From Sulfurihydrogenibium azorense Az-Fu1 (GTDB taxonomy: Bacteria; Aquificota; Aquificia; Aquificales; Hydrogenothermaceae): DNA of 64,000 nt. The position numbers and the translations under genes were made by a program. Below are positions 12,649 to 34,152 of the stretch, in pieces. Below the pieces are notes generated by a model, which saw only the letters and a list, made by a program, of their open reading frames with translations, was not told the DNA's origin and made no database searches. Positions within the stretch are counted from its first letter, which is position 1. Each line of letters begins with the position of its first letter. The stretch spans positions 558,001 through 622,000 of the forward strand of contig NC_012438.1 of the NCBI RefSeq assembly GCF_000021545.1, given 5' to 3'.

Positions 12649-13647
12649 ATGGCAGACTATAAAAGACCTACAGTATCAATAGTAGGAGCGGGGAATGTAG
12701 GAGAACACGTAGCAAACCTAATAGCCATAAAAGAACTTGCAAACGTTAGACTTTTTGATTTACCAAAAAAATTAGATGATAAAACTTTTGAAGTAGTAAA
12801 AGGAAAAGCTTTAGATATAAAACAGATGGCTGCAGCAATTGGTGTAGATGTAGATATTAGGGGTTATAATGTAACAGCTGATGGGCAAGGATACGAACCT
12901 TTAAAAGACTCTGATATAGTTGTTATTACAGCTGGATTTCCCAGAAGACCGGGAATGAGTAGAGATGACCTTTTAACTGCAAATGTTAACATTATAAGAG
13001 TAATAGCAGAGAGAGTAGCTCTTTACGCTCCTAACGCTGTTGTTATTGTAGTTTCTAACCCGGTTGACGTTTTGACTTATGCAGCTTTAAAAATAACCGG
13101 ATTTCAAAAAAATAAAGTGATTGGAATGGCTGGGGTTTTAGACACTGCAAGGTTTAAAACGTTTATATCTCAAGAGTTGAAAGTATCTATTTCTAACATC
13201 AACTGTTTTGTTATAGGTGGACATGGTGATGATATGGTTCCACTTCTTTCTGTATCAAATGTAGGAGGAACTCCTTTAAAAGAGTTGTTTACAAAAGAGA
13301 AGTTAGAAGAGTTAATAAATAGAACAAAATTCGGGGGAGGGGAAATTGTAAATCTAATGGGTACTTCTGCTTACCATGCTCCCGGTGCATCTGTAGTTCA
13401 AATGGTTGAAGCAATTTTAAAAGACAAAAAAGCTATTATGCCTTGCTCCGTGTACCTTGAAGGAGAAGATGCAAGATTTTATGAAGCTTACGACGTTTGC
13501 GTAGGACTACCAGTAAAAGTAGGAGCTCACGGTTGGGAAGAAATTATTAAAATCAACCTCTCAGAAGAGGAAAAACAGATGTGGCAAAAGTCTGTAAAGT
13601 CTGTAAAAGAAGGCATTGAAAGAATAAAAGAGTTAAAATTAATATAA
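12649..13647 (+). CDS. mdh: malate dehydrogenase
   Basis: Mdh interconverts oxaloacetate and malate with NAD(P)H, the first reductive step of the rTCA arc encoded downstream. The 332-residue product has the nucleotide-binding motif VSIVGAGNVGEHVANL, the substrate loop PRRPGMSRDDLL, whose Arg pattern favours malate over lactate, VVVSNPVDVLTY, and the catalytic His in VIGGHGDDMVPL. AAAGGAGG (12633-12640) lies 8 bases before ATG 12649. In-frame starts at 12616 and 12643 are too early or too close to that site. It heads the run mdh-fumA-uma2-fumB-sucC-sucD. Confidence 0.93.
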   Translation: MADYKRPTVSIVGAGNVGEHVANLIAIKELANVRLFDLPKKLDDKTFEVVKGKALDIKQMAAAIGVDVDIRGYNVTADGQGYEPLKDSDIVVITAGFPRRPGMSRDDLLTANVNIIRVIAERVALYAPNAVVIVVSNPVDVLTYAALKITGFQKNKVIGMAGVLDTARFKTFISQELKVSISNINCFVIGGHGDDMVPLLSVSNVGGTPLKELFTKEKLEELINRTKFGGGEIVNLMGTSAYHAPGASVVQMVEAILKDKKAIMPCSVYLEGEDARFYEAYDVCVGLPVKVGAHGWEEIIKINLSEEEKQMWQKSVKSVKEGIERIKELKLI

Positions 13648-13664
13648 AAAAACTGAGGTAAAAT

Positions 13665-14510
13665 ATGAGAGAAGTACATTTTAATGAAATAGTAGAAAAA
13701 GTAAAAAATTTAGTGATGGATAGTGAGTATAGGCTTCCTCAAGATTTTATCCAAGCCATAAAGGTAGCAGTAAACAAAGAAGAATCACCTCTTGGTAAAG
13801 AGATTCTCCAAGAGATACTAAAAAATGCAGAAGTAGCAGAAAAAGAGCAGGTTGCTTACTGTCAGGATACAGGATACCCAGTTTTCTTTGTGGAAGTAGG
13901 TCAAGATGTAAAAATAGTAGGAGGAAGTCTAAGGGAAGCTATAAACGAGGGAGTGAGAAGGGCAACTAAAGAAGGTTATCTAAGAGCATCTTTAGCATAC
14001 GACCCTATCTTTGATAGGAAGAATACTCAAGATAACACACCTGCTTTGATATACTTTGATATTATAGAAGGAGATAAAATAAAGATAAAATTTGCAGCAA
14101 AAGGTGGTGGGTCTGAAAATCAAAGTAAACAAGCCATGTTAAAACCTGCTGATGGCATTGAAGGTGTAAAAAAATTTGTTTTACAAACAATAGCAAACGC
14201 TGGACCAAATGCTTGTCCACCTTTCACTGTAGGAGTTGGTATAGGTGGAACTTTTGATTACTCTGCAGTACTTGCAAAAAAAGCACTCTTTAGACATATA
14301 GGAGAAAGACATCCTGACCCAAGAATAGCAGCCTTAGAAGAAGAGCTATTAAACCTTGCAAATCAACTTGGTGTAGGACCTCTTGGATTTGGAGGAACTA
14401 CTACAGCTGTGGATGTTAAGATAGAGATAGCACCTTGTCATATAGCATCTTTACCTGTTGCTGTTAATATTCAATGCCACGCAGCAAGACATAAGGAGAT
14501 TGAGATTTAA
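13665..14510 (+). CDS. fumA: fumarate hydratase class I, alpha subunit
   Basis: This is the N-terminal half of a two-subunit class I [4Fe-4S] fumarase, which dehydrates malate to fumarate in the reductive direction. The 281 residues show [17 protein letters not shown], the Cys-containing signature, [31 protein letters not shown] with another cluster Cys, and the C-terminal [14 protein letters not shown] with a third. The matching beta subunit is two genes on. The stop codon overlaps the ATG of the inserted Uma2 gene (TAATG). Related tartrate dehydratase subunits look alike, but the context supports fumarase. Confidence 0.92.
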
Positions 14511-15124
14511 TGAAAGTTTCTACAAAAGAGAAACTTTTAAATAAGAAAAAAACAGGAATTCCCAGAGCTCTTATATACGAGATGCGTTATGGTTCCCCTA
14601 TTTATTATAGGGACTACGATAAAGTGCTTAAAGGAGAAATTCCTTTAGAGGCGGTTAAGGGAAGCAGTGGATTACAGGCATGGTTAATAAAGATTATTTT
14701 AAAGTTCTTACTTAAAGTTTTAAATAAGAAGTATGAAATCCTTTCAAATGAAGTAGGATTTAAGTTTGCTAAAAAAAGCTGGTATAACCTCGATATAGCA
14801 ATCTGGGAAAAAGAAAAGATAAAACCGTATTTAAAAGAAAATAAACTTATTCCTGTCCCTCCTGAATTAGTGATAGAAGTAGATACAAAAGCAGACTTGA
14901 GAAAGTTTGAAAATCCCCAAGACTATTTTCATAAAAAAACTCAAGATTTATTAAATGCAGGAATTAAAAAAGTTATATGGATATTTACTCAAGATAAAAA
15001 AGTATGGATAGCTCAGCCAAGTAAACCATGGCTTATTGTTGACTGGAATTACGATATTCCAGTTTTAGATGACTTGAAAATGAATATAGAAAAACTAATA
15101 AAAGAGGAAGAAGAAAATGAGTGA
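14510..15124 (+). CDS. Uma2 family (DUF820) PD-(D/E)XK protein lodged in the fumarase operon
   Basis: The 204-residue protein is a Uma2/DUF820 family member with a restriction-endonuclease-like fold. The segment PPELVIEVDTKADLRKFENP holds the conserved acidic residues, and KKTQDLLNAGIKKVIWIF is the family's K...Y/L-x2-G-V-x2-V-W element. N-terminal MRYGSPIYYRDYDKVLKGE is also typical. Its function is unknown. The ATG overlaps the fumA stop by one base, and its end overlaps fumB by 8 bases, so it is translationally coupled to both fumarase subunits though it has no obvious metabolic link to them. Confidence 0.8.
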   Translation: MKVSTKEKLLNKKKTGIPRALIYEMRYGSPIYYRDYDKVLKGEIPLEAVKGSSGLQAWLIKIILKFLLKVLNKKYEILSNEVGFKFAKKSWYNLDIAIWEKEKIKPYLKENKLIPVPPELVIEVDTKADLRKFENPQDYFHKKTQDLLNAGIKKVIWIFTQDKKVWIAQPSKPWLIVDWNYDIPVLDDLKMNIEKLIKEEEENE

Positions 15125-15680
15125 TGCAAAAATAATAACTACCCCTTTAACAGATGATGTAATAGAAAGTTTAAGAGCTGGAGAGAAAGTTTTAATAACT
15201 GGATGGGTTTACACCGCAAGGGATGCAGCTCATAAAAGAATGCTTGAAGAGTATGAAAAAACAGGAAAACTACCTTTTGACATTAAAGGTCAAGTTATTT
15301 ACTACGTTGGACCTACTCCCGCAAAACCAGGACAAGTTATAGGTTCAGCCGGACCTACTACAGCCTACAGAATGGATAAGTACACACCTAAACTTTTAGA
15401 ACTAGGATTAAAAGGAACAATAGGAAAAGGATGGAGAGGTCCTGAAGTAAAAGAAGCTCTAAAAAAGTATAAAGCAGTTTACTTTGCTGCGTACGGTGGA
15501 ACTGCAGCTCTACTGTCAAAACATATTACAAAAGTTGAGATGGTAGCTTATGAAGACTTAGGACCAGAAGCTATTAGAAAACTTTACTTTGAAAACTTTC
15601 CAGTTATAGTAGCAAACGATATATACGGTGGTGATGTTTTTGAAGAAGGACAGAAAAAATACAGAAAACTGGTAATATAA
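15117..15680 (+). CDS. fumB: fumarate hydratase class I, beta subunit
   Basis: This is the C-terminal half of the two-subunit class I fumarase, 187 residues. Visible family motifs are LRAGEKVLITGWVYTARDAAHKR with the catalytic region, IYYVGPTPAKPGQVIGSAGPTTAYRMD, the KGWRGPEVKEAL loop (family KG substrate-binding motif) and AAYGGTAALLSKHI. The start at 15117 sits inside the end of the Uma2 gene. sucC follows 17 bases later behind its own AGGAGG, so the operon continues in pathway order. Confidence 0.92.
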   Translation: MSDAKIITTPLTDDVIESLRAGEKVLITGWVYTARDAAHKRMLEEYEKTGKLPFDIKGQVIYYVGPTPAKPGQVIGSAGPTTAYRMDKYTPKLLELGLKGTIGKGWRGPEVKEALKKYKAVYFAAYGGTAALLSKHITKVEMVAYEDLGPEAIRKLYFENFPVIVANDIYGGDVFEEGQKKYRKLVI

Positions 15681-15697
15681 CAGCAGGAGGTTAACAG

Positions 15698-16864
15698 ATG
15701 AAAGTACATGAACATCAGGCAAAAGAAATCTTTAGAAAGTATGGCCTTCCAGTACCAAGAGGTTATCCAGCTTTTGATGTAAAAGAAGCAGTAGAGGCAG
15801 CTGAAGAGCTTGGAACTTGGCCTGTAGTTGTAAAAGCTCAAATCCACGCAGGTGGAAGAGGTAAAGCTGGCGGTGTAAAACTTGCTAAATCCATAGAAGA
15901 AGTACAACAAATAGCAGCTGAGCTTTTAGGGAAAAAGTTAGTTACATTCCAGACAGGTCCTGAAGGTTTACCAGTAAGCAGACTATACATAGAGGAAGGA
16001 ACAGCTATTGATAAAGAGTATTACGTAGCTATCACGTTAGATAGAAGTAAATCAAAACCTATAATAATGGTTTCAGCTGCCGGTGGAATGGAAATTGAAG
16101 AAGTTGCAGCAACAAACCCAGAAGCTATAATAACCCATACAATAGAGCCATTTATAGGACTTAGAAGTTATCATGCAAGAGAGTTAGCATTAAAGTTAGG
16201 ACTTCCTAAGAACCTTTTAAACAAAGCAGCAAACTTATTTATGACTTTATACAAAATTTACATAGAACTTGATGCTTCTATGGTAGAAATTAACCCGTTA
16301 GTATTAACAAAAGACGGTAATTTAGTAATTTTAGACGCAAAAATAGACTTTGATGATAACGGATTGTTTAGACATCCAGAAATAATGGAGATGGATGACC
16401 CAACCCAAATATCTCCGTTAGAAGTAGAAGCTAAAAAGTTTAACCTTAACTACATAAAACTTGATGGAAACATCGCTTGTATGGTTAATGGTGCAGGACT
16501 TGCAATGTCAACTATGGATACTATAAAGTTGGCAGGAGGAGAACCGGCTAACTTCCTTGATGTTGGTGGGTCTGCAAACGCAACACAGATAGCGAACGCA
16601 TTTAAAATAATACTCTCTGACCCTAACGTAAAGGCTATATTTATAAACATATTTGGTGGAATTTTAAGATGTGATAGACTTGCAGAAGGTATCATTACAG
16701 CTGCAAAAGAAGTATCTATAAACGTACCTGTTATAGTAAGAATGGAAGGAACAAATGTAGAATTAGGTAAAAAGATGCTTCAAGAGTCTGGTTTACCACT
16801 TATAACTGCTGATACAATGTGGGAAGGAGCCCTAAAAGCAGTAGAGGCTGCAAACAAAGGTTAA
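15698..16864 (+). CDS. sucC: succinyl-CoA synthetase, ADP-forming, beta subunit
   Basis: SucC with SucD converts succinate, CoA and ATP to succinyl-CoA, the substrate for the 2-oxoglutarate:ferredoxin oxidoreductase. The 388-residue length matches SucC, not the longer citryl-CoA synthetase large subunit that occurs in this phylum. The ATP-grasp domain opens [22 protein letters not shown] and continues [18 protein letters not shown], with MVEINPLVL and [10 protein letters not shown] binding Mg-ATP. The CoA-ligase domain has [19 protein letters not shown] and [11 protein letters not shown]. The ATG follows CAGGAGG. Confidence 0.94.
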
Positions 16865-16867
16865 AAA

Positions 16868-17026
16868 ATGGGATACTTTACAGATAAATACCTTCCTTAC
16901 TATACGATTGAAGAAAGAGACAGATGGGAAGGAGACTGGGAGCTTGTAGAAGGTATTCCTTACGCCCTTACCTCTTCTTCTGTTGTTCATTGTAAGATTA
17001 ACTTAGATGTATCAAAAATAATTTAA
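16868..17026 (+). pseudogene. truncated Uma2 (DUF820) family remnant between sucC and sucD
   Basis: A 52-codon frame starts at ATG 16868 just after sucC and reads MGYFTDKYLPYYTIEERDR, then WEGDWELVEGIPYALTSSS. This is the usual N-terminus of Uma2/DUF820 proteins (Y-T/S-I-E-E-x2-x-W-E-G-x-W/F-E-L-I/V-x-G-x-P-Y). It breaks off after [14 protein letters not shown], about a quarter of the way into the domain, so the catalytic acids are missing. It looks like the relic of a second Uma2 insertion into the same operon, though it is still translatable. Confidence 0.75.
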
Positions 17027-17040
17027 ACAAGGAGGTTTGT

Positions 17041-17922
17041 ATGAGCGTTTTAGTAAATAAAAATACAAAAGTTGTAGTACAAGGAATAACAGGAAGAGAA
17101 GGCTCTTTCCATGCTATACAGTGTAAAGCCTATGGAACTCAAGTTGTAGCAGGAGTTACACCCGGAAAAAAGGGAGAAAATGTTGAAGGTATACCTGTTT
17201 TTGACACAGTAAAGGAAGCAGTAGAGGAGACCGGAGCTGACTGTTCTTTAATTTTTGTACCACCACCATTTGCAGCAGACGCAATATTAGAAGCCGTAGA
17301 TGCAGGAATAAAAACTGTAATATGTATAACAGAAGGAATACCAGTAAACGATATGCTTCCGGTTAAACAGTATATTAAAAAGTACTATCCAGACACAGTT
17401 TTAATAGGACCAAACTGTCCCGGTGTCATCACACCAGAAGAAGCTAAGATAGGTATAATGCCCGGACATATATTCAAAAAAGGAAATGTAGGAATAGTAT
17501 CAAGAAGTGGAACACTTACCTACGAAGCTGCTTACCAACTTACAACAAGAGGTATAGGACAGTCAACTGCAGTGGGAATAGGAGGAGACCCTATACCGGG
17601 AACAGTTTTTGCAGACGTACTAAAATGGTTCCAAGACGACCCAGAAACTGAAGCCATCGTTATGATTGGAGAGATAGGTGGAACAGCTGAAGAAGAAGCT
17701 GCCGAGTTTATAAAGTCCTACGTTAAAAAACCAGTTGTTGCTTACATAGCAGGAGTAACAGCACCTCCGGGAAAAAGGATGGGACATGCAGGAGCTATCA
17801 TAGCCGGAGGAAAAGGAACAGCTGCAGAAAAGTACAAAGCCTTAGAATCAGCAGGAGTTGTTACTGTTAAAAACCCATCTATAATAGGTGAAACAGTTGA
17901 AAAAGTTTTAAAAAATAAATAA
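17041..17922 (+). CDS. sucD: succinyl-CoA synthetase, alpha subunit
   Basis: The 293-residue catalytic partner of SucC. It has the CoA-binding Rossmann segment [22 protein letters not shown], the [20 protein letters not shown] loop, [15 protein letters not shown], and the phosphohistidine site [18 protein letters not shown] with the active His. The length and motifs are standard. The ATG at 17041 follows AAGGAGG. It ends the TCA run; a fresh promoter at 17980 then drives the for cluster. Related citryl-CoA synthetase small subunits share the fold, but gene order points to succinyl-CoA synthetase. Confidence 0.94.
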
Positions 17923-17979
17923 TATTATATGAATATGGTCATAGATTAATGCGGAAAAAACATTATTATATTTACTAAC

Positions 17980-18008
17980 TTGACTAAAAAATAAAACACT
18001 GTTATATT
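17980..18008 (+). promoter_or_regulatory. forD promoter containing the AAACACTGTT core
   Basis: TTGACT (17980-17985) and TATATT (18003-18008) are 17 bases apart and lie 31 bases before the forD ATG. The spacer contains AAACACTGTT (17994-18003), the same 10 bases found in the palindrome upstream of mdh. The surrounding symmetry is weaker here (TAAAACACTGTTATA). The rest of the 116-base gap after sucD shows no terminator. Confidence 0.5.
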
Positions 18009-18038
18009 ATTTGAAATTTTAAATAGGAGGTCTACATT

Positions 18039-18749
18039 ATGAGAGTCAACATCGGTCCAGAAGGTTATATACCTAAAGCAGCCGCAATGGAAGGGGTGGC
18101 TTTACCATCTGCACCTAACAAAGGTCTTCTTTACGGTGAAGAAGTAGACGAAGAAGTAGCTATGAGAGAAGCTGCAAAAGCTATGCTAACAAGACAAAAT
18201 CCTACTATATTCCCAGGTCCTAAAATTCTTTGGGGATGGAGTCCTTCTGCATTTGAAGAAGCAGACGCTATTTTAGAGCTTGCAAAAGAGATACCTAATT
18301 GTAGAATTATTCCTATGCCAGACTACAGACCAAAATATCCTAAGATAGACCCAGAAGCTGAAATTAACCCAAACCATCCAAACTTAACTATCTTACACAA
18401 CAGAATTGAAGCTTGTATATTCGTGGGAGTTCACTGTCATTACGCTAACTTATCTTTAAGAATGATAAGAGCAGGTACTAACTGTTTTACCATTGCAATT
18501 TGTGGTGAATTAGGTCACGAAGAAGCTCATGCAACTATAAGAGATGCTCACGGTGAAAAAATAAGGAAGTTTAAGGACATCTTAATAGAAGTTAGAAATG
18601 AACTTGGAATTAAATGGGAACCAAAATTACCACCACCAAACCCATCTTTACCAAAAGAAAATTGGGAAACTGTATCATTTGCAGACTATGGAGAGTATAC
18701 ATTTTTACTTTTACCTAAAAAAGGTGAAATTATAACTGATTCTGAATAA
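18039..18749 (+). CDS. forD: 2-oxoglutarate:ferredoxin oxidoreductase, subunit D (ForD-type, no Fe-S motif)
   Basis: The first gene of a five-subunit cluster ordered D-A-B-G-E, the order known for the 2-oxoglutarate enzyme (for genes) of Hydrogenobacter thermophilus. The 236-residue protein has no ferredoxin cysteines, unlike the delta subunit of common POR enzymes. It carries EEVAMREAAKAMLTRQNPTI then FPGPKILWG, NPNHPNLTILHNRIEACI then FVGVHCHYANLSLRMIRAG, and a C-terminal extension of about 45 residues absent from PorD in this window. The pattern resembles the epsilon subunit (CdhB) of acetyl-CoA decarbonylase/synthase, a comparison made by eye. Its biochemical role is unknown. Confidence 0.82.
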   Translation: MRVNIGPEGYIPKAAAMEGVALPSAPNKGLLYGEEVDEEVAMREAAKAMLTRQNPTIFPGPKILWGWSPSAFEEADAILELAKEIPNCRIIPMPDYRPKYPKIDPEAEINPNHPNLTILHNRIEACIFVGVHCHYANLSLRMIRAGTNCFTIAICGELGHEEAHATIRDAHGEKIRKFKDILIEVRNELGIKWEPKLPPPNPSLPKENWETVSFADYGEYTFLLLPKKGEIITDSE

Positions 18750-18796
18750 AAAGTAGTTTTTTAAAAATTATTTTATTTTATATTGGAGGTATGACC

Positions 18797-19966
18797 ATGC
18801 CAGAACAAAAAGTCGTAGATACGGATTATCTTTTACTAGAAGCTCCAAGAGAGCGTAAATTCATAACTGGTGCTCAAGCTATGGCAGAAGCTGTAAAAAG
18901 AGCCAATGTTGATATGGCTATAGCATATCCAATTACTCCACAATCAGAAGTTATGCACTTGGTTGGGGACCTTTGGGCTCAAGGATATCTTAAAGATTAC
19001 TATAGAGCAGAAGAAGAGTATGGAGCTTTCTCTGCCATTGCAGGAGCTGCAAGAGGTGGAGCAAGAGTATTTACAGCCACATCAGGTCCGGGATTGCTCA
19101 GAGGTTTAGAGGCTATAGTTTCATGGCCAGGACATAGAGTTCCAGCCGTTTTAGGGGTATTAACTAGGGTAGTAAACGCTCCGCTGTCAATACAGCCAGA
19201 TAACATTGAAATATCCTACTTATTAAACTGTGGAGCAGTTGTACTTCATGCAGAAAACCAACAGGATGTATTTGATTTTACATTAGCAGCTTTTGCGATA
19301 GCTGAAATGGTAGATGTTTACATTCCTGTAGCTGTTGCAACAGAAGGTTTCTTCGTTACACACGCAAAAGGATACGTAGACTTACCACCTGAAGATATGA
19401 AACTTCCAGATAAAAATCCATATAAATCTCCAGTTCCTCCTACAGATTGTGAAATTCCTCCTGCAAGAATTCAAAGAGATGCTCCTGTTCAAAAATCTAA
19501 CTTTATGAGCTACCTTATACACGCAGTATGGCAGCAAGAAATATGGTCATCTAATGCAAGAGCTATGAAATATATATACAAATACCTCAAAGGTCCAATA
19601 GAAGTTATAAACCCGGATGCAGAAGTGTTTGTTGTAGCTTCAGGATGTGCAGCTGCTCAAGCAAGAGAAGCAGTTAGATATTCACAGTTAGAAGGTCTAA
19701 ATGTTGGTCTTGTTAAAGTTAAGTCTATAAGACCATTCCCTGAAAAAGAAATTAGAGAAGTTTTAAAGAATGCTAAAGGAATAGTTATACCAGAGCATAA
19801 CATTGTAGGTTGGTTAGCTAGAGAAGTTAGATCTGTAATACCAAATAATGACAGAGTAGTAAACGGGCCAAGAGTTTACGGTGGAATGACTTTACCAACA
19901 GAGTTAATACTTGATGAAATTTATAAGATACTTGGTATTAAGAAAGATAGAAAAGTTTTAGTTTAA
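18797..19966 (+). CDS. forA: 2-oxoglutarate:ferredoxin oxidoreductase, alpha subunit
   Basis: The alpha subunit binds the 2-oxoacid/TPP pyrimidine side of the CO2-fixing OGOR. The 389 residues show FITGAQAMAEAVKRANVDMA, IAYPITPQSEVMHL, the family's YPITP signature, GAARGGARVFTATSGPG and the transketolase-C-like segment with SIRPFPEKEIREVLKN. GGAGG (18785-18789) is 7 bases from ATG 18797 and only 1 base from ATG 18791, so the later start is preferred. Assignment to 2-oxoglutarate rather than pyruvate rests on adjacency to sucCD and on the D-A-B-G-E order. Confidence 0.9.
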   Translation: MPEQKVVDTDYLLLEAPRERKFITGAQAMAEAVKRANVDMAIAYPITPQSEVMHLVGDLWAQGYLKDYYRAEEEYGAFSAIAGAARGGARVFTATSGPGLLRGLEAIVSWPGHRVPAVLGVLTRVVNAPLSIQPDNIEISYLLNCGAVVLHAENQQDVFDFTLAAFAIAEMVDVYIPVAVATEGFFVTHAKGYVDLPPEDMKLPDKNPYKSPVPPTDCEIPPARIQRDAPVQKSNFMSYLIHAVWQQEIWSSNARAMKYIYKYLKGPIEVINPDAEVFVVASGCAAAQAREAVRYSQLEGLNVGLVKVKSIRPFPEKEIREVLKNAKGIVIPEHNIVGWLAREVRSVIPNNDRVVNGPRVYGGMTLPTELILDEIYKILGIKKDRKVLV

Positions 19967-19990
19967 TACTTTTTAAAGGAGGTATCAATC

Positions 19991-20869: not shown

Positions 20870-20875
20870 TGTTTT

Positions 20876-20899
20876 AAGGGTGGTTTTTAGACCACCCTT
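20876..20899 (+). other. intra-operon stem-loop between forB and forG
   Basis: AAGGGTGGT (20876-20884), the loop TTTTAG and ACCACCCTT (20891-20899) form a perfect 9-base-pair stem. TTAAAATTTATT follows, so there is no T run and termination is unlikely to be efficient. The ribosome site of forG begins 11 bases later. It is likely an mRNA processing or stability element. Confidence 0.6.
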
Positions 20900-20923
20900 T
20901 AAAATTTATTAAAGGAGGAAATC

Positions 20924-21604: not shown

Positions 21605-21628
21605 AAATTTAAACAGGAGGATTTTACA

Positions 21629-21859: not shown

Positions 21860-21875
21860 TTAATTTTGATCACTA

Positions 21876-21915
21876 GCTCCTCTGAAAAAGAGGAGCGACT
21901 TATTTACTTTTTTTT
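21876..21915 (+). terminator. terminator-like hairpin after forE
   Basis: GCTCCTCT (21876-21883), the loop GAAAA and AGAGGAGC (21889-21896) form an 8-base-pair GC-rich stem. A T-rich stretch starts about 11 bases later. The distance weakens it as an intrinsic terminator, so it may act as an attenuator that lowers read-through into the inorganic-carbon module. No convincing new promoter is visible in the 78-base gap. Confidence 0.6.
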
Positions 21916-25665: not shown

Positions 25666-25685
25666 CTAAAAGGGAGCTACTAATA

Positions 25686-26252: not shown

Positions 26253-26265
26253 TAGGAGATTACTC

Positions 26266-27240
26266 ATGAGTTTAGATTTACTGATACAAAATGTATTAAA
26301 CCCTGTAATATTATTTTTCTTCCTTGGAGTACTATCTATTTTTTTACGGACAGGATTGGAGATACCTCAGCCCATCCCTAAATTTATTTCTTTGTATTTA
26401 CTTATGTCTATAGGCTTACACGGTGGTTATGAGCTTTCTAAAAGTGGTTTGGACTTTTATGTCTTTAAAGTTTTAGGTTTGGCTTTACTTATGGCTATAG
26501 TGGTACCTATATACTCTTTCTTTATTTTAAGATTAAAAGTGGACATCTATAATGCTGTAGCTATAGCTGCTACCTATGGTTCTATAAGTGCAGTTACATT
26601 TATAACAGCTGTAAACTTTCTACAGTCTATAGGAGATAGTTATAGTGGTTTTATGGTAGCTGCTATGACCTTAATGGAATCTCCCGCGATTATAATAGGT
26701 TTAATATTACTTAATATTTTTGCTAAAAAGTCGGACAATGGAAATCTAGATGTAAAAGAACTTTTAAGGGAGTCTTTTTTTAACCCTTCCGTATATATAC
26801 TTACAGGTTCATTGTTAATAGGTTTTATAACAGGAGAAAAGGGTTGGAAGGTTGTAGACCCTCTATTTGGACAACTTTTTAAACCTATGTTAGCATTTTT
26901 CTTACTAGATATGGGAATAGTTGCTGCAAGACGTTTAAGTGAGCTGAAAAAGGTTGGTATGTTTTTAGTTGCTTTTGCAATAATTATTCCTATAATTAAT
27001 GCTACTATAGCTATTTTGATAGCTAGTAGTGTAGGAATGACGAAAGGAGATGCTTTTGTTTTTGCGGTCTTGTGTGCAAGTGCGTCTTACATAGCTGTTC
27101 CTGCTGCTATGAGATTATCCGTTCCTGAAGCAAATCCAAGTATATACGTAACTATGGCACTTGCATTAACCTTTCCATTTAATATATCTGTAGGTATTCC
27201 TCTATACTATTGGTTAGCAAATAAAATTTTAGGGGGATAA
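26266..27240 (+). CDS. sbtA: SbtA: sodium-dependent bicarbonate transporter
   Basis: The 324-residue permease with about ten helices matches the SbtA family (DUF897). It has NPVILFFFLGVLSIFLRTGL EIPQPIPKFISLYLLMSIGL HGG at the start, AIAATYGSISAVTFITAVNF with the inverted-repeat discontinuous helix, SFFNPSVYILTGSLLIGFIT G, and LCASASYIAVPAAMRLSVPE ANPSIY. SbtA imports bicarbonate with Na+ and is inhibited by its PII-like partner, which is the next gene, 4 bases downstream. The ATG follows TAGGAG. The family is best known from cyanobacterial carbon concentration. Confidence 0.93.
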   Translation: MSLDLLIQNVLNPVILFFFLGVLSIFLRTGLEIPQPIPKFISLYLLMSIGLHGGYELSKSGLDFYVFKVLGLALLMAIVVPIYSFFILRLKVDIYNAVAIAATYGSISAVTFITAVNFLQSIGDSYSGFMVAAMTLMESPAIIIGLILLNIFAKKSDNGNLDVKELLRESFFNPSVYILTGSLLIGFITGEKGWKVVDPLFGQLFKPMLAFFLLDMGIVAARRLSELKKVGMFLVAFAIIIPIINATIAILIASSVGMTKGDAFVFAVLCASASYIAVPAAMRLSVPEANPSIYVTMALALTFPFNISVGIPLYYWLANKILGG

Positions 27241-27243
27241 ATC

Positions 27244-27537
27244 ATGAAAAGGATGAAGAAAATTGAGGTTGTGATTGATACTATCCATTTAGAACATTTG
27301 ATAAGTCTATTAGAAAACAGAGGATTTACAGGTTATACAGTAATTAAAGATGTTTATGGTAAAGGAGAGAGAGGGTTGATGATTGGTGATGAGGTAACAG
27401 GTGTTTTTCAAAATAGCTACCTTTTTACAATTTGTGAAGAACAACAACTAAACGATGTTATAGAAGATTTAAGAAAAATGTTAAAAAAGTATGGAGGAGT
27501 TTGTATAGTCTCTGATGTAGACTGGCTTATACACTAA
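27244..27537 (+). CDS. sbtB: SbtB: PII-like regulator of SbtA
   Basis: The 97-residue protein has the PII ferredoxin-like fold: KIEVVIDTIHLEHLISLLEN RGFTGYTVIKDVYGKG, a T-loop-like RGLMIGDEVTGVFQNSYLFT, and VIEDLRKMLKKYGGVCIVSD. SbtB proteins bind adenine nucleotides, including cAMP, and gate SbtA. The C-terminal CGPxGC redox R-loop found in many cyanobacterial SbtB proteins is missing; the end is DVDWLIH. It is probably regulated by nucleotide state rather than by thiol redox, an inference from that absence. It lies 4 bases after sbtA and 17 bases before dabA. Confidence 0.88.
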   Translation: MKRMKKIEVVIDTIHLEHLISLLENRGFTGYTVIKDVYGKGERGLMIGDEVTGVFQNSYLFTICEEQQLNDVIEDLRKMLKKYGGVCIVSDVDWLIH

Positions 27538-27554
27538 TTATTTAGGGGGTTTTT

Positions 27555-30392
27555 ATGAAAACTGTAGCCTTAAAAGAAGCTTCTTCTATTTTACCTAAAT
27601 ACTGGCCTTTGACTATGTTTGTACACCACAATCCTCTGCACGAGTTGGAGAGTTTGCATTTTAAACAAGCTCTTAAAATAGCAAAAGACCTATTTGATGC
27701 CAAAGTTTATATGGATCCATCTTACTATGTAGATTTATACAGAAAAGGTAAGGTTAGAAAAGACTCTTTAGAAAAAAATATAGAAGAATTTTTAAGAGAA
27801 AATAATTTTAACTTTAATAAATACAAAGTTAGAAAATTTTTAACAGATATAAGTCCTAGTTGGAAAGAGTATAAAGAAGAAAGTTTTAACAATCCGAGTA
27901 TTAAAGTACCTGATTACCTTTTAGAATATATTAAAAAAGATAAGGGCTACGATAATTTAGACAATCTTTTCTATACGTACATAAAAAAGTACTTGTTTAG
28001 TGAAATACTTGATATTTTATTTGACCAAAATATCTATAACGTATTTTTTAATGATGCTGTTGAGTTTATATCAAGATTTTTAGATGAAGGGCAGACAAGT
28101 ATAACTCTGCCATTTAGGGAACAGGGATACTGGAACTGTTTTAGACAGTTTTATAAATTAGATAAACATCCAGAAGATATTATAGAGGAGTTTGAAAATA
28201 CTTTTCAACCACCTTCATTACAAGATTATGCAAGGCAGTTGTATATCAGATTTTTCGGTTGGAGTAGTTTCATAAAATTTAGAGAATCTACTCCTTTCTA
28301 TCCTTACCAAGAAGAGTTTCCTATTAATTTAGAAGACTTTGGATCAAGTTTACTTTACCTTGAAAATCAATATATACAAGAATTGAATAAATCTAAAATT
28401 AAAAACTATTTTGATCTTATGGCTTTTTACAAAGAAAACAAATACTATGTAATACTTAAATTATTTGAACATAGAAAAATATTAACACCAAAGTATATAT
28501 CTAAACTTTACACATCTAAGGATTATGATAACATCTTTAATAAGTTTATAAATGAAGAAATTGAAAGTGAAGCAAAAGCTATAGTAAACCTTTCTACAAA
28601 AGTGTTTGATAAAAGTGACTATCTACAAACATACAATCTTGTAAAAACTTTGAAAGAAGATGAAGAGTGTTATCTGTGGATAAAATCATTAGAAGATTCT
28701 TATGCCTTAAATTTTGGTAGAGAGTTTATTAAAGAATACCAAATAGATGAAAAACCTAAAGCTTTTGCTGTTTTTTGTGTAGATGTTAGGTCAGAAGCTC
28801 TTAGAAGGAATCTAGAGAGGGTAGATAATTACAAAACTTTTGGAGTTGCTGGTTTTTTTGGTGTTAAGATGGCTTTAATAGAGTTTGATAAAGCCCATGA
28901 ACTCCTTCTCTGCCCTGCTATGGAGATACCAGACAAAGTAGTTCTTGAAGTACCTACACAAAAAACACAAGATTATGAAAAGAGAAAAAAATTACTTATA
29001 TCACTAAAAAAGATTTTAGAAGGATTGAAGAATAACCCATATACTCCTTTTTTTGCAGTTGAGTCTTTTGGTTGGTTGTTTGGTTATAAACTTTTCGGTA
29101 AAACATTGTTTCCAAGTGTTGTAGCCAAGATAGATAAAAAAATTAAACCTAAACCCCCTAAAACTTTTTACATGATTGATAAATTATCTGAAAAAGAAGT
29201 AGATACATATACAGATAAATTCTTTTACGAAAAGATATATCAAGCTTTTGAAAAGGAGGGTATAAAAATTAAAGATTGTGAAGTGAAGGATATACTATCC
29301 AAACTAAAAAATAATGAAAATATTTCTCAAAACTATCAAAAAGTTCTAAACAGGTATAGAATAACAAAACAGTATTACGATTATATATATAATAGATTTT
29401 CCAATATAGGTTATACATTAGATGAGCAAGTTATACTGGCAGAAAACTTTTTAAGATTGATAGGTATGGTGGAGGATTTTCCTGAGTTTGTTTTACTTGT
29501 AGGTCATGGAAGTGTTTCTGATAATAATCCTTACGAGTCTGCTTTAGATTGTGGTGCCTGTGGCGGTAATTCCGGATATCATAATGTTAGAGCTATGTGT
29601 ATGATTTTAAATAAAAAAGAAGTAAGAGAAAAACTTAGTATAAGAATCCCTGATGGTACTATTTTTATTCCAGGATTACACAATACCACTACAGATGAAA
29701 TTGAGTTTTATGATGAAGATTTAGTACCAGAAAATAGTTTAGATAAATGGGAAGAGATTAAAAAGGATTTTAAAAAAGCAGGCGAAAAAACTAGAATAGA
29801 AAGATTATCATCCCTTCCTTACGCTGATAATCCAGAAGATGTAATTGTTAGATCAATAGACTGGTCAGAAATGAGGCCAGAGTGGGGTCTTTCTAAAAAC
29901 CTTGGTGTGTTTGTAGGTAAAAGTGAGAGTCGTATAAATAGTGTCCTAAAAAATAGATTCTTCTTACATTCTTATGATTATAAGATAGATGTAGACAACT
30001 CTATTTTGAAAAGAATTCTTAATGGACCTCTTTTAATTGCCCAATGGATAAACGCAGAACATTACTTTTCTACAGTAGATAATGAAAAATTTGGTTCAGG
30101 GTCTAAAGTTTACCACAACGTTGTATCAAGGATAGGGGTTTTTAGTGGTAATTACTCTGATTTAAAGATAGGTCTACCTTACCAAACTGTTTATGTTGAA
30201 GACCGTCCTTTCCATGAACCCATAAGATTAATCGCTTTTGTAGAAGCTCCCTTAGAGAAAGTAGTAGAGGCTGCATCTCAAACAGATCATCCCATGATGC
30301 TTGTAAAAAATGAGTGGATAAGGCTTGTTGTTATAGACAAAGAGAAAAATAAAGTTTTTTTATTTTCAAATGGTAATTTTGTAGAATTGTGA
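27555..30392 (+). CDS. dabA: DabA: DUF2309 carbonic-anhydrase-like subunit of the DAB inorganic-carbon pump
   Basis: The 945-residue protein is a DUF2309 member. DabA is reported to hold a beta-carbonic-anhydrase-like zinc site and, with DabB, to hydrate CO2 vectorially and accumulate bicarbonate. The zinc ligands are recognisable. FCVDVRSEALRRNLE gives C408 and D410, LLVGHGSVSDNNPYESAL gives H651, and DCGACGGNSGYHNVRAM gives C666. The C-x-D and H-x14-C spacings match those reported for the Halothiobacillus protein. The N-terminal MFVHHNPLHELE is also characteristic. The C-terminal half has PLLIAQWINAEHYFSTVDNE KFGSGSKVYHN. It is the last gene of the module before porE, 35 bases on. Confidence 0.94.
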   Translation: MKTVALKEASSILPKYWPLTMFVHHNPLHELESLHFKQALKIAKDLFDAKVYMDPSYYVDLYRKGKVRKDSLEKNIEEFLRENNFNFNKYKVRKFLTDISPSWKEYKEESFNNPSIKVPDYLLEYIKKDKGYDNLDNLFYTYIKKYLFSEILDILFDQNIYNVFFNDAVEFISRFLDEGQTSITLPFREQGYWNCFRQFYKLDKHPEDIIEEFENTFQPPSLQDYARQLYIRFFGWSSFIKFRESTPFYPYQEEFPINLEDFGSSLLYLENQYIQELNKSKIKNYFDLMAFYKENKYYVILKLFEHRKILTPKYISKLYTSKDYDNIFNKFINEEIESEAKAIVNLSTKVFDKSDYLQTYNLVKTLKEDEECYLWIKSLEDSYALNFGREFIKEYQIDEKPKAFAVFCVDVRSEALRRNLERVDNYKTFGVAGFFGVKMALIEFDKAHELLLCPAMEIPDKVVLEVPTQKTQDYEKRKKLLISLKKILEGLKNNPYTPFFAVESFGWLFGYKLFGKTLFPSVVAKIDKKIKPKPPKTFYMIDKLSEKEVDTYTDKFFYEKIYQAFEKEGIKIKDCEVKDILSKLKNNENISQNYQKVLNRYRITKQYYDYIYNRFSNIGYTLDEQVILAENFLRLIGMVEDFPEFVLLVGHGSVSDNNPYESALDCGACGGNSGYHNVRAMCMILNKKEVREKLSIRIPDGTIFIPGLHNTTTDEIEFYDEDLVPENSLDKWEEIKKDFKKAGEKTRIERLSSLPYADNPEDVIVRSIDWSEMRPEWGLSKNLGVFVGKSESRINSVLKNRFFLHSYDYKIDVDNSILKRILNGPLLIAQWINAEHYFSTVDNEKFGSGSKVYHNVVSRIGVFSGNYSDLKIGLPYQTVYVEDRPFHEPIRLIAFVEAPLEKVVEAASQTDHPMMLVKNEWIRLVVIDKEKNKVFLFSNGNFVEL

Positions 30393-30427
30393 TATAATTT
30401 TAACAAACTTAATAGGAGGTTTATCTA

Positions 30428-30664
30428 ATGTATTATGTTGCAGAAGTTATAAATGATGAATGTACCAAGTACAAGTGTAATCAATGTACTTTATTTTGCC
30501 CAGAACCAAACACTTTGATGTATGTTGATACTCCTGAAGAAAGACATGCTTTTGTTTATGCTAACAGATGTAAAGGATGTGCTCTGTGTGTATATGTGTG
30601 TAGCAATCTTTTAAAAAGAAATGCTATACATATGATAATGCCAGAAGTACATTCAGCAACTTAA
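30428..30664 (+). CDS. porE: pyruvate:ferredoxin oxidoreductase, epsilon (ferredoxin-like) subunit
   Basis: A 78-residue 2x[4Fe-4S] protein, a close paralogue of ForE. Cysteines at 12, 17, 20 and 24 form the first set and 48, 51, 54 and 58 the second, with the same C-x4-C-x2-C-x3-C-P spacing in the first set. The cluster order E-D-A-B-G is that reported for pyruvate:ferredoxin oxidoreductase of Hydrogenobacter thermophilus, so pyruvate is the expected substrate: acetyl-CoA plus CO2 plus reduced ferredoxin to pyruvate. The ATG follows AGGAGG. Confidence 0.9.
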   Translation: MYYVAEVINDECTKYKCNQCTLFCPEPNTLMYVDTPEERHAFVYANRCKGCALCVYVCSNLLKRNAIHMIMPEVHSAT

Positions 30665-30693
30665 AATATTTTTTTTATATAGGAGGTATTACT

Positions 30694-31263
30694 ATGGCAA
30701 AATTAGGACCTATGGGATTTTCACCATATCCAGCAGCTGTTAAAGAATTTGTTCTTAATCCACCACCAGGAAAAGCTTTACTTTTTGATGAGATAGTAGA
30801 TGAAGAAATTGCAATGAAAGAAGCTGCAAAAGCTATGTTGACAAGAGAAAACCCTACTATATTTCCAGGACCTCAAGTTTTATATGCTTGGAGTGAAGAT
30901 GCAAAGAAAAAAGCAAAACTTATAAAAGAGTTAGCTAATGTGCTAGGTGCTAAGATAATCCCTATGTATGATTACAGACCTAAATATCCTAAAATTAACC
31001 CTGAAGTGGAAATAAATCCAAACCATCCAAATTTGACTATCTGGCATAATAATATAAAAGCTTGCATATTTATAGGAGTACATTGTCATTATGCTAACGT
31101 TGCATTGAAAATAATTAGAGCTGAAACAGATTGTTTCACTATAGCTATGTGTAGTATGGAAGGACACGAAGATGCAATGATAACACTAAGAGACCAACAT
31201 CCGGAAGAATTAGAGAAATTTATTGAAATAGCTAAGCAAGTTAGAGCCGAATTAGGAAAATAA
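30694..31263 (+). CDS. porD: pyruvate:ferredoxin oxidoreductase, subunit D (no Fe-S motif)
   Basis: A 189-residue paralogue of ForD. It shares PNPTIFPGPQVL-type and KINPEVEINPNHPNLTIWHN segments, with ACIFIGVHCHYANVALKIIR AETDCFTIAMCSMEGHEDAM later. It lacks the C-terminal extension of ForD and any ferredoxin cysteine motif, so it is not the classical delta subunit. The conserved GVHCHYAN is a possible ligand-binding element. The gap of 91 bases to porA is AT-rich and shows no hairpin or clear promoter. The role of the subunit is unknown. Confidence 0.82.
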   Translation: MAKLGPMGFSPYPAAVKEFVLNPPPGKALLFDEIVDEEIAMKEAAKAMLTRENPTIFPGPQVLYAWSEDAKKKAKLIKELANVLGAKIIPMYDYRPKYPKINPEVEINPNHPNLTIWHNNIKACIFIGVHCHYANVALKIIRAETDCFTIAMCSMEGHEDAMITLRDQHPEELEKFIEIAKQVRAELGK

Positions 31264-31354
31264 GTTTAATTATAATTATTTTATTTATGATAATAGTCAT
31301 TGAATAAATTATTTTATAAGTAGATTATTTTTACAAATATCAGGAGGTTTTATC

Positions 31355-32551
31355 ATGATTAACCCATTAACAACAGAAGTTCAATATAATAAGTCAGGTC
31401 AAAAAATAGTATCACCAGATTACCTTCTATTTGAAGCTCCAAGGGAAAAGTTCTTTATGACAGGTTCAGAAGCTGTTAAAGAAGCCGTTAAAAGAGCATC
31501 TGTAGATGCATCAGTATCGTACCCTATAACCCCACAGTCAGAAGCTGCACACCTAATAGGTGAGTTATGGGTTGAAGGATACGTTGGAGTATACTTCAGA
31601 GGTGAATCTGAGTTTGGTGTTATGTCAGAGGTTGCAGGTTGTGCTTTAGCAGGTGCAAGAACAATTACTACAACATCAGGTCCTGGAACATTAAGAGCCT
31701 TTGAAAACTTCCCAATGTGGGCAGGAACAAGAATACCTGTTCAGTTAGTACTTATGGCAAGAGGTGTTAATTCTCCTTTGTCTATTCAGCCAGATAACCT
31801 TGAAGTAGGATTTTTATTAGATACAGGATGTATGATATGGTATGCAGAGAACGCTCAAGATTTATTTGATATGATATTAGCAGGATTTGTTGTAGCTGAA
31901 AAACCAGCTGTACATGTACCTGTAATAACAGTAGTTGACGGTTTCTTTGTGTCTCACACAAGAGAAGCTGTAATGCTTCCACCAGATGACATAGCTTTAC
32001 CTCCTTACGACCCTAAAAAAGCTCCTATGCCTGTTATAGATCTAGAAGTTCCTCCTGGAAGATTTTTAAGAGACCCATTTGTTATGAAATCTAACTATAT
32101 ATCTTACGCAACCCATGCAAGCTGGCAGTTTGAAGTTAGAGCTGCTATAGAAAGGTCAAGACCTTATGCAAAACATTACTTAAGAGGTTTAATAGAAGAG
32201 TTTGGAAACCCTGATGCTGATATTGTATTCGTTGCAGCAGGTACTGCGGCATCTCAATCGAAAGAAGCAGTTAGATTATTAAAAGATGAGCATGGTATAG
32301 ATGCTAAAGTAGTTAAATTAAAAACTATAAGACCTTTTCCATATGAAGAGTTAAGATCAGCTGTTAAAAATGCTAAGTACATTTTTGTTCCTGAGTTTAA
32401 TGTTGTAGGTTGGATGGAAAGAGAGGTAAGAAGATACTTATACAAGCATTCAGATGCAGAAATAATAGGAGCTCCAAGAGTGGCAGGTGGTATGACAATG
32501 CCAGCTGAGGTAATTGTAGAAGAAGTTTTAGACTATTTAAAAGTTAGATAA
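31355..32551 (+). CDS. porA: pyruvate:ferredoxin oxidoreductase, alpha subunit
   Basis: The 398-residue alpha subunit shows SVSYPITPQSEAAHLIGELW, CALAGARTITTTSGPGTLRA, SPLSIQPDNLEVGFLLDTGC and a C-terminal domain with KTIRPFPYEELRSAVKNAKY. It is paralogous to ForA over its whole length. The ATG follows CAGGAGG. The pyruvate assignment is inferred from the E-D-A-B-G order and from the second cluster's distance from sucCD; the alpha sequence alone does not decide the substrate. Confidence 0.9.
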   Translation: MINPLTTEVQYNKSGQKIVSPDYLLFEAPREKFFMTGSEAVKEAVKRASVDASVSYPITPQSEAAHLIGELWVEGYVGVYFRGESEFGVMSEVAGCALAGARTITTTSGPGTLRAFENFPMWAGTRIPVQLVLMARGVNSPLSIQPDNLEVGFLLDTGCMIWYAENAQDLFDMILAGFVVAEKPAVHVPVITVVDGFFVSHTREAVMLPPDDIALPPYDPKKAPMPVIDLEVPPGRFLRDPFVMKSNYISYATHASWQFEVRAAIERSRPYAKHYLRGLIEEFGNPDADIVFVAAGTAASQSKEAVRLLKDEHGIDAKVVKLKTIRPFPYEELRSAVKNAKYIFVPEFNVVGWMEREVRRYLYKHSDAEIIGAPRVAGGMTMPAEVIVEEVLDYLKVR

Positions 32552-32572
32552 TTTAAGTAGGAGGTATACGGT

Positions 32573-33433
32573 ATGTCTTTTAAAGTGTTTCAAATAAATG
32601 AAGAATTTTTAGATGTAATGCCAAAAGAGATAGTTGATCTTCAAGAGAATGCAACTTGGGGAAATCCTAAAAGGGGAGTAATGGATCTTCCTTTCCACAA
32701 GGAGTTAATTGAAGAACACTCTTTGTGTGCTGGTTGCCCCGAAGCAGCTGCTTTAAGGTATATTATGGCATCTATACCCAATCCTGAAGATACTGTTATA
32801 GTTAACTCAACAGGATGTACTTCTTTGGTATTCCCTCACATTGCAATGCATACAGTTCACTCTCTTTTCGGAAACCAAAATGCTGTAGCATCTGGAATAA
32901 AGAGGGTTTTAGAGTATAGATACCCTGATAAAGTTAAAGATGTTATAGTATTGGCAGGTGATGGAGCTACTATAGATATAGGATTGGACTGTACATTGCA
33001 ATCTTTCTTTAGACAAGAGAAAATTACAACTATCTGCTTTGATAACGAGGTTTATGCAAACACAGGTGGACAAGAGAGTGGAGCTACACCTAAAGGCCAC
33101 GTGTTTAAAATGGCTCCTAAAGGTAAGCAGTTTGAAAAAGTTCCAATGTGGCAACTGGCTATAGACTCTGGTTGTAAATATGTAGCAAGGTTGACAGTTT
33201 CTTCTCCAAAGAGAGTAGAATCCGTAATTAAAAAAGCTGTATATGTAGCTAGAGAAGTAGGACCAACATATGTTCATCTTTACACTCCTTGTATACTTGA
33301 AATAGGTCTCAACTCTGACCAAGGTCTAGAAGAGATGAGATCAAAGGATAAAGAAAGATTCGCTTTCTTTGAGTATATATCTCCTGAAGCAGAGGAAGTA
33401 ATTAACAGGAAAAAAGCGGAGGGCTTACTATGA
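32573..33433 (+). CDS. porB: pyruvate:ferredoxin oxidoreductase, beta subunit
   Basis: The 286-residue TPP subunit. HSLCAGCPEAAALRYI and STGCTSLVFPH carry cluster cysteines. VLAGDGATIDIGLDCTLQSF and CFDNEVYANTGGQESGATPK are the TPP motif. TPCILEIGLNSDQG supplies the last Cys. The SLCAGCPE variant differs from PMCAGCFM in ForB, consistent with a different substrate. The stop overlaps the porG start by 4 bases. Confidence 0.93.
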   Translation: MSFKVFQINEEFLDVMPKEIVDLQENATWGNPKRGVMDLPFHKELIEEHSLCAGCPEAAALRYIMASIPNPEDTVIVNSTGCTSLVFPHIAMHTVHSLFGNQNAVASGIKRVLEYRYPDKVKDVIVLAGDGATIDIGLDCTLQSFFRQEKITTICFDNEVYANTGGQESGATPKGHVFKMAPKGKQFEKVPMWQLAIDSGCKYVARLTVSSPKRVESVIKKAVYVAREVGPTYVHLYTPCILEIGLNSDQGLEEMRSKDKERFAFFEYISPEAEEVINRKKAEGLL

Positions 33434-34149
33434 AAAGAAAAAGAGTCAATATTAGAATGCCTGGTCTTGGTGGACAAGGGGCTGTCACGGCAGCTCATAT
33501 AATAGCTACAGCTGCAGACTATGAAGGTTACTATGCAGTTTCTAATCCATTCTTTGGGGCTGAAAAAAGAATGGCTCCTGCTGAAAGTTATGCAAGAATA
33601 GGTGTAGAGCCGATTTATGACAGAGGAGAGGTTGTATATCCAGATGTTATTATGGTTTTTCATAACCATGTTATAACTATGGGTAAATCCTACACAATGC
33701 CTTTCTACTCTGGAATAAAGAAAAATGGACTTATTATAATTAACTCAGAAGAAGATCTTTTAACTCCTGGTGATAAAGCTTACCTTGATTCTTTAAATGT
33801 TAAAGTTTACAACTTCCCTGCGACAAAGTTTGCTATTGAACAAGCGGGAACGGAACTTGCTACAAATATGGCAATGGTTGGAGCTCTATTTGGATGTATC
33901 GGATCTGTAGGGCTTGAGGCTATAGAAGAAGGTATTAAAGCAAGATTCCTTAAAAAATTCGTTGCATCTGGTGGTACAGCATCGTTAGACTCAGCTCTTG
34001 AAAGAAAGTTTAAGAAAAAGTTAGAATTAATAGAGAAAAACTTAAACACAGCTAAAGCTGCTTATGAGCTTGCAGCAGAGTGGGCAAAATCTCAAGGTCT
34101 TGAATCTTTTTTACCGCCACCACCTAAAAAGAAAGCAGAAGTTGCATAA
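33430..34149 (+). CDS. porG: pyruvate:ferredoxin oxidoreductase, gamma subunit
   Basis: The 239-residue gamma subunit begins RVNIRMPGLGGQGAVTAAHI IATA with the family's GxGGQG motif, then NPFFGAEKRMAPAESYARI and TELATNMAMVGALFGC. The C-terminal tail ends in a run of prolines and lysines (FLPPPPKKKAEVA) that ForG lacks. It is the last gene of the 12.6-34.15 kb region, and a strong bidirectional terminator follows. Confidence 0.92.
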   Translation: MKRKRVNIRMPGLGGQGAVTAAHIIATAADYEGYYAVSNPFFGAEKRMAPAESYARIGVEPIYDRGEVVYPDVIMVFHNHVITMGKSYTMPFYSGIKKNGLIIINSEEDLLTPGDKAYLDSLNVKVYNFPATKFAIEQAGTELATNMAMVGALFGCIGSVGLEAIEEGIKARFLKKFVASGGTASLDSALERKFKKKLELIEKNLNTAKAAYELAAEWAKSQGLESFLPPPPKKKAEVA

Positions 34150-34152
34150 ATC

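Follow-up and report, generated by a model that had tools for sequence, protein, structure and literature searches.

Sulfurihydrogenibium azorense Az-Fu1 carries genes of two inorganic-carbon pump families, DAB and SbtA, between two five-subunit 2-oxoacid:ferredoxin oxidoreductases (OFORs) of the reductive tricarboxylic acid (rTCA) cycle. The stretch of DNA analysed here, called the window, is 64,000 nucleotides long and corresponds to positions 558001-622000 of the single 1,640,877-base contig NC_012438.1. In it, forDABGE and porEDABG, which from gene order and relatives are assigned as 2-oxoglutarate:ferredoxin oxidoreductase (OGOR) and pyruvate:ferredoxin oxidoreductase (POR), respectively, are separated by eight genes and no more, all on the same (+) strand as for and por. 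These encode, in this order, a 95-aa protein, CobW, a protein resembling the central domain of GltB, DabB, a 188-aa membrane protein, SbtA, an SbtB-like PII protein and DabA. Chance does not account for the arrangement, which is found again in other genera and in another phylum. From the observed gene content, catalytic residues, recurrent linkage and co-occurrence we regard the locus as a real and conserved carbon-supply module for five-subunit rTCA enzymes, probably a functional one. With a probability of roughly 0.55, it represents an inorganic-carbon uptake module within an rTCA operon that is dedicated to the five-subunit, probably O2-tolerant form of OGOR and POR.

Pumps and five-subunit enzymes across the Aquificota

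Among 136 Aquificota genomes, DabA was found in 52, SbtA in 21 and at least one of the two in 67. The five-subunit enzymes were scored by a match to PF02552 (E < 1e-30), the full five-gene set being checked in fetched loci only, and this marker was present in 76 genomes. All 67 genomes with DabA or SbtA carried the marker, and 60 genomes had neither marker nor pump. Within the window's genus (n = 7), G000, G098, G100 and G103 have enzymes and pump and no beta-carbonic anhydrase (beta-CA), whereas enzymes and pump are both missing from G099, G101 and G102.

The two sets of genes are also physically linked. The dab or sbtA genes were located within 10 kb of for or por on one contig in 47 of the 67 pump genomes, a count resting on the fetched stretches, and in 12 of 14 genera. 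The linked pump was sbtA in 18 genomes and dab in 31, two genomes being included in both figures. The OFOR neighbours were sought by BLAST with the window's proteins (E 1e-5), a search that distant two- or four-subunit enzymes would escape. Seven pump genomes were cut by contig ends (G011, G013, G015, G017, G020, G024 and G057); in G024 a weak dabB match adjoins for-cobW at the contig end.

Gene order varies around a common theme. Typical orders in the Aquificaceae were forDABGE-95aa-cobW-dabB-dabA-PII and forDABGE-95aa-cobW-sbtA-sbtB, and in two genera of the Hydrogenothermaceae for-95aa-cobW was followed by dab on the other strand and, beyond it, by por. The Hydrogenobaculum-like genomes G030, G032 and G034 contain two DabA copies each, none seen adjoining for.

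A DabA tree (88 rows, quick search) consisted of two deep groups with support 100. The first contained the Hydrogenothermaceae, Hydrogenobaculum and Campylobacterota, and the second the Aquificaceae, two other Sulfurihydrogenibium genomes, Proteobacteria and one actinobacterial metagenome-assembled genome. Both groups and SbtA, hence three pump types, were all found adjoining for or por. That different pumps adjoin the same enzymes argues more strongly for a working connection than a single arrangement inherited from a common ancestor would. In G026, the for-cobW contig (G026:C28) retains a dabA remnant with an internal stop at 6085-6348, and sbtA is located on another contig. One pump may here be replacing another, and the case indicates that pumps turn over while the enzymes stay.

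A preliminary description, made from the sequence of the window, had proposed a co-regulated supply of carbon dedicated to the rTCA cycle and had named, among the findings that would overturn it, confinement of the arrangement to one genome with no co-expression. The linkage in 47 of 67 Aquificota pump genomes, with three pump types and in Campylobacterota as well, supports the proposal in part, namely the connection of carbon supply with the rTCA cycle, and disposes of the objection that the arrangement is confined to one genome.

Organisation of the locus

Upstream (5′) of forDABGE are mdh, both fumarase genes and sucCD. The features of the locus are as follows.

12616-13647, +: mdh, malate dehydrogenase (Pfam Ldh_1_N/C; NCBIfam malate dehydrogenase subfamily NF004863 over cut-off)
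13665-14510, +: fumarase alpha subunit (Pfam Fumerase, 389 bits)
15117-15680, +: fumarase beta subunit (Pfam Fumerase_C)
15698-16864, +: sucC, succinyl-CoA synthetase beta (NCBIfam NF001913 over cut-off)
17041-17922, +: sucD, succinyl-CoA synthetase alpha (NCBIfam NF004230 over cut-off)
18039-21859, +: forDABGE, five-subunit OFOR (OGOR type from gene order)
21876-21896, +: hairpin directly 3′ of forE
21938-22225, +: 95-aa companion of for, no known family (25-sequence alignment)
22185-23138, +: CobW/COG0523-type GTPase, start codon uncertain (Pfam cobW, 145 bits)
23218-24057, +: stand-alone GltB-central-domain-like protein (Pfam Glu_syn_central, 38 bits)
24076-25665, +: dabB, NuoL/Mrp-like membrane subunit (Pfam Proton_antipo_M, PF00361; PDB 9rd0_B match)
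25686-26252, +: third membrane gene of the DAB operon, 188 aa (structure model, Foldseek, position in relatives)
26266-27240, +: sbtA, Na+-dependent bicarbonate transporter family (Pfam Sbt_1, PF05982, 398 bits)
27244-27537, +: sbtB-like PII protein (Pfam P-II, 55.9 bits)
27555-30392, +: dabA, beta-CA-like catalytic subunit (Pfam DabA, PF10070, 657 bits)
30428-34149, +: porEDABG, five-subunit OFOR (POR type from gene order)

The earlier account of for and por flanking eight pump-region genes on one strand agrees with these positions for every gene it named. Its starting point at 12649 falls inside mdh, at an internal ATG of the longest open reading frame (ORF; 12616-13647).

All intergenic gaps from dabB to porG are at most 91 bp. 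A scan of 15001-34900 detected 5 terminator-like sites where 9.0 were expected, and none on the + strand beyond 22517. The promoter scan did no better than chance (75 found, 79.6 expected), and no Rfam family reached its gathering score within the window.

The pump proteins

Alignment of DabA with DabA2 of Halothiobacillus neapolitanus (9rd0_A) placed C408, D410, H651 and C666 at the zinc-site positions, which we take to be C351, D353, H524 and C539 in H. neapolitanus numbering. The four residues are invariant among 12 DabA. The window DabA also has the leucine of RPEWGL, the counterpart of Leu658, a residue that stands in place of a canonical beta-CA residue and is reported to be strictly conserved in 150 DabA2 homologues (PMC13144422). 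DabB matched PDB 9rd0_B (DabB2) at E = 9.5e-41, ranked behind two NADH dehydrogenase subunits. Of the features of a DAB pump, the operon has a DabA-family protein with its zinc site and a NuoL/Mrp-like dabB; between dabB and dabA lie the third membrane gene and sbtAB.

The 188-aa membrane protein belongs to no Pfam family. Its structure model (predicted local distance difference test, pLDDT, 90) was matched by Foldseek to part of complex I and Mrp antiporter subunits (NuoM/MrpD-like), and genes like it sit between dabB and dabA in many DAB operons. The idea that it is wholly new was rejected, as it is in kind like the third membrane protein of DAB1, the two being compared by description only.

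SbtA is a member of the PF05982 family and matched the cyanobacterial SbtA structure PDB 7cye_A at E = 5e-31. The sbtB-like protein is a PII family member; its four PDB matches at E 0.001 all bear P-II or Pii-like names (nearest 5d4n/5d4l) and none is named SbtB. Judged from their sequences, the pump genes look functional. In Aquifex aeolicus, DabA is abundant in the membranes (PMC10052474).

The five-subunit enzymes and their companions

ForD matches Pfam CO_dh and ForG is over the PorC_KorC cut-off; ForA and ForB match OFOR subunit models below the curated cut-offs only, and ForE is recognised from its own sequence and relatives only. In porEDABG, CO_dh, POR_N, TPP_enzyme_C and POR are matched over cut-off, and the 4Fe-4S matches of PorE are slightly under it. 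The beta subunits of For and Por are split in the tree with support 100/100. Genes for alpha, beta, gamma, a ferredoxin-like epsilon and a CO_dh-like delta subunit occur together, as is characteristic of five-subunit OGOR and POR. Enzymes of this form are probably O2-tolerant, a property that would extend to the present organism. They have also been reported for Nitrospira, Leptospirillum and Nitrospina (PMC10052474).

The hairpin after forE was seen in the same place in 7 of 14 relatives inspected by eye (L037, L038, L040, L032, L033, L034 and L062), and its sequence is not conserved. It may protect the for message, or may separate that message from the downstream genes.

The 95-aa protein adjoins forE on its 3′ side in most Aquificota loci read, and its C-terminal tail is near-invariant in 25 aligned sequences. 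From its sequence, the tail resembles a docking peptide. No Pfam family was assigned to the protein, and its model (pLDDT 85) gave no fold match at E 0.001.

The cobW product in the window has both the Walker A and the CxCC motifs. Among the distinct cobW-like ORFs of the fetched loci, the metal-binding motif CxCC was found in 53/53 and Walker A in 52/53. CobW was considered and rejected as a pump part: cobW trails for in genomes that have sbtA only, and trails porG in Campylobacterota. Since CobW keeps to the five-subunit enzymes and not to the pump, a role in the assembly of these enzymes, or in zinc supply, is possible.

Stand-alone copies of the GltB-central-like protein were detected in 4 of 136 genomes (the present one, G098, G078 and G079), in Hydrogenothermaceae only and always in the for-por gap. 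It too was rejected as a pump part, since G079 lacks DabA and yet retains the protein between for and por. The protein shows 31-45% identity to GltB of the Aquificaceae and 25% to the GltB of its own genome.

Carbonic anhydrases and the fate of bicarbonate

For ion coupling, expression and the fate of bicarbonate, we infer the following scheme. DabA and DabB together with the third membrane protein would probably convert incoming CO2 to bicarbonate, driven by proton-motive force, and SbtA, under the control of the SbtB-like PII protein, would probably take up bicarbonate together with Na+. Biotin carboxylases would draw directly on the resulting pool; one would be pyruvate carboxylase and the other probably an enzyme of the 2-oxoglutarate carboxylase type. 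The pool would also be a reservoir from which CO2 for OGOR and POR could be released by weak gamma-CA-like activity or by uncatalysed dehydration, presumably fast at hot-spring temperature, and the absence of beta-CA would limit CO2 leakage. A rough estimate puts uncatalysed dehydration of 20 mM bicarbonate at 2-4 mM/s at 68 °C. With demand near 1 mM/s, feeding OGOR and POR in a hot cell may require no fast carbonic anhydrase.

Beta-CA was present in 51 of 136 Aquificota genomes, and its distribution was very uneven: 2 of 67 pump genomes (G066 and G068) had it, compared to 49 of 69 others. Within family f1 the figures were 2 of 13 and 25 of 28. Alpha-CA occurred in 7/67 pump genomes and in 27/69 others, among them three of the nine five-subunit genomes that have no pump (G008, G016 and G018). 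A search of the present genome returned no beta-CA match, one alpha-CA and a gamma-CA-like protein (294229-294747 of the genome), whose sequence holds the histidines expected of the gamma class. Proteins of the latter kind were found in 122 of 136 Aquificota. The claim that pump genomes are without cytosolic carbonic anhydrase was accordingly rejected: beta-CA is nearly absent there, yet gamma-CA-like proteins are nearly everywhere.

The present genome encodes two PYC_OADA carboxylase subunits, and so do 48 of the 64 members of family f2. Many other Hydrogenothermaceae have one, as do those genomes of genus g8 that have a match. All five SbtA-bearing Hydrogenothermaceae (G000, G098, G100, G078 and G079) have two, which makes it probable that some of the bicarbonate is consumed directly; two subunits without SbtA occur in G066 and G068. 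The preliminary description had already raised the doubt that the pumps make bicarbonate while OGOR and POR need CO2. The doubt is real: with one alpha-CA, a gamma-CA-like protein, no beta-CA match and two PYC_OADA subunits, which would use bicarbonate, both fates are possible.

These data bear on a different explanation, which is possible although we consider it somewhat unlikely. It holds that the pumps mainly supply bicarbonate to bicarbonate-using carboxylases (pyruvate, 2-oxoglutarate and acetyl-CoA carboxylase, biosynthesis), and that they replace beta-CA without raising CO2 for OGOR and POR. The near-exclusion of beta-CA and pumps, in the whole sample and within f1, fits this well, as does the second PYC_OADA in the five SbtA-bearing genomes and most of f2. 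A tendency to have either a carbonic anhydrase or a transporter is known (Scott et al. 2024, PMC10880623), also from work on Firmicutes and S. aureus: MpsAB and carbonic anhydrase can complement each other's mutants (PMC6689103) and have been described as two alternative supply systems (PMC8552792). The explanation leaves aside, however, why the pumps adjoin the CO2-using for and por genes and not those of biotin carboxylases, and why they track the five-subunit enzymes; moreover, G065, G069, G074-G076 and G103 have a pump with only one PYC_OADA.

Several observations speak against a module dedicated to the five-subunit enzymes. Nine marker genomes have neither DabA nor SbtA, and one of them, G018, is 99% complete. 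The co-occurrence counts are not independent of phylogeny, and Fisher values, which ignore phylogeny, are given no weight as proof. Linkage was not observed in g11 (6 genomes), the Hydrogenobaculum-like g14 (5 genomes), G026 and G079; among the 13 genomes read as unlinked, several (such as G003, G004, G007, G031 and G034) are represented by short contigs or were fetched on one side only. Beta-CA is found in 0 of 64 genomes of f2, pump or not, so that the exclusion pattern is partly one of lineage, and it is present in 3 of 14 Campylobacterota genomes with window-like dab. The gamma-CA-like protein occurs with and without pumps, and low cytosolic carbonic anhydrase is thus not proven. Lastly, the pumps yield bicarbonate while OGOR and POR use CO2, and without a CO2-tight compartment the gain may be small.

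A second phylum and the probable transfer of the genes

DabA loci from named genomes (n = 80) included 14 of Campylobacterota, chosen for their likeness to the window DabA. Eleven of the 14 have for or por within 10 kb. By BLAST with the window proteins, no for or por was found near DabA in phyla other than Aquificota and Campylobacterota in this 80-locus set; six loci from such phyla carry a RuBisCO signature. Among 298 genomes drawn from the order of Sulfurimonas G140, the five-subunit delta gene was detected in 4, G140 included. In all four, dab adjoins for or por, and cobW adjoins porG; G140 itself was picked for its dab, and the independent figure is consequently 3/3.

The Campylobacterota sequences group with the Hydrogenothermaceae genera g2 and g4 in the trees of DabA (support 99), CobW (99/97) and PorB. 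For PorB the support was 96/96 without Aquificaceae rows and 94/95 with four such rows, the latter tree having a very long outgroup branch. The ForB tree gave no resolved placement of Campylobacterota. A divergent order, with por and dab pointing away from each other, is common to Campylobacterota and g2/g4. The trees together with the gene order point to a joint passage of por, cobW and dab between phyla, the direction of transfer resting on nesting in midpoint-rooted trees. The five-subunit 2-oxoglutarate:ferredoxin oxidoreductase (OOR) and POR of Sulfurimonas pluma are close to the Aquificales enzymes (Molari et al. 2023, PMC10066037), and pump and CobW appear to have travelled along with the Sulfurimonas enzymes.

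We tentatively extend the dedicated-module reading as follows. The five-subunit OGOR and POR with a pump could form a transferable cassette for an aerobic rTCA cycle, with its own metallochaperone-like CobW and 95-aa factor. This would be the rTCA counterpart of the RuBisCO trade-off: lower activity or CO2 affinity would be the price of O2 tolerance and would make the enzymes dependent on a pump, whereas relatives without five-subunit enzymes would manage with beta-CA and diffusion.

Agreement of the PorB, CobW and DabA trees on the cross-phylum grouping, with the shared divergent order, is also what would be seen if the linkage were mainly a matter of history. An aerobic rTCA island would then have spread both vertically and horizontally. 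The pump would have come with it, since oxic habitats low in CO2 favour the two alike, and there would be no functional coupling. Pump presence is indeed strongly lineage-bound, and the unlinked g11 and g14 fit as well. We nevertheless hold this to be improbable, since three pump systems are linked to for and por, in differing orders and on either strand, and since G026, whose for contig keeps a dabA remnant while its sbtA lies on another contig, shows turnover of the pump. A role of DAB and SbtA in the balance of pH, Na+ or membrane potential in place of carbon supply is very improbable: DabB and the third membrane gene are antiporter-like and the MpsAB of Staphylococcus aureus has been argued to use the sodium gradient (PMC13144422), but DabA keeps the whole carbonic-anhydrase-like site, DAB2 did not rescue sodium stress (PMC13144422), and SbtA and DAB substitute for each other beside the same enzymes.

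Relation to known systems

The co-location of genes of the dissolved inorganic carbon toolkit with rTCA genes was already pointed out in a general way (Scott et al. 2024, PMC10880623), so the basic finding is known. In the parts of that paper drawn on, whose Figure 2 may draw the present locus, the five-subunit enzymes, the several pump types per site, the CobW and 95-aa companions and the transfer to Campylobacterota are not singled out. No description of the association between five-subunit enzymes and pumps was found in the literature searched by titles and abstract openings, and within it the wider pattern appears new.

The window DAB resembles DAB1 and DAB2 of H. neapolitanus (PMC13144422, PDB 9rd0) in its DabA active-site residues and NuoL-like DabB, and DAB1 also has a small third membrane protein (PMC13144422). 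It differs in being linked to rTCA enzymes, and the window DabA belongs to a separate deep clade. As in cyanobacterial SbtA-SbtB, an Sbt_1 family gene is followed by a PII-like gene; unlike there, the best PDB matches of the PII are 5d4n/5d4l and the pair sits inside a DAB operon. The OOR and POR of S. pluma likewise have five subunits and the same operon organisation as in Aquificales and were proposed to be O2-tolerant (PMC10066037). The terms inorganic carbon, bicarbonate and carbonic anhydrase do not occur in the main text of that paper, whereas here dab and cobW are in the shared block. The likeness to Calvin-cycle carbon-concentrating systems put forward in the preliminary description holds for the pumps.

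Most work on CO2-concentrating mechanisms has centred on RuBisCO. With a pump that follows the five-subunit rTCA enzymes through different genera, pump types and two phyla, it can be tested whether a second carbon-fixation cycle evolved such a mechanism of its own, and whether O2 tolerance created the need for a pump. The little-studied parts named here (CobW, the 95-aa protein and the third DAB membrane gene) are of interest for moving the rTCA cycle into new hosts.

Finally, a Uma2-like ORF (14510-15124; 23 bits, under the Pfam cut-off) is located between the two fumarase genes and overlaps both. The pyruvate:ferredoxin oxidoreductase cluster of A. aeolicus also holds a Uma2-homologous gene (PMC10052474).

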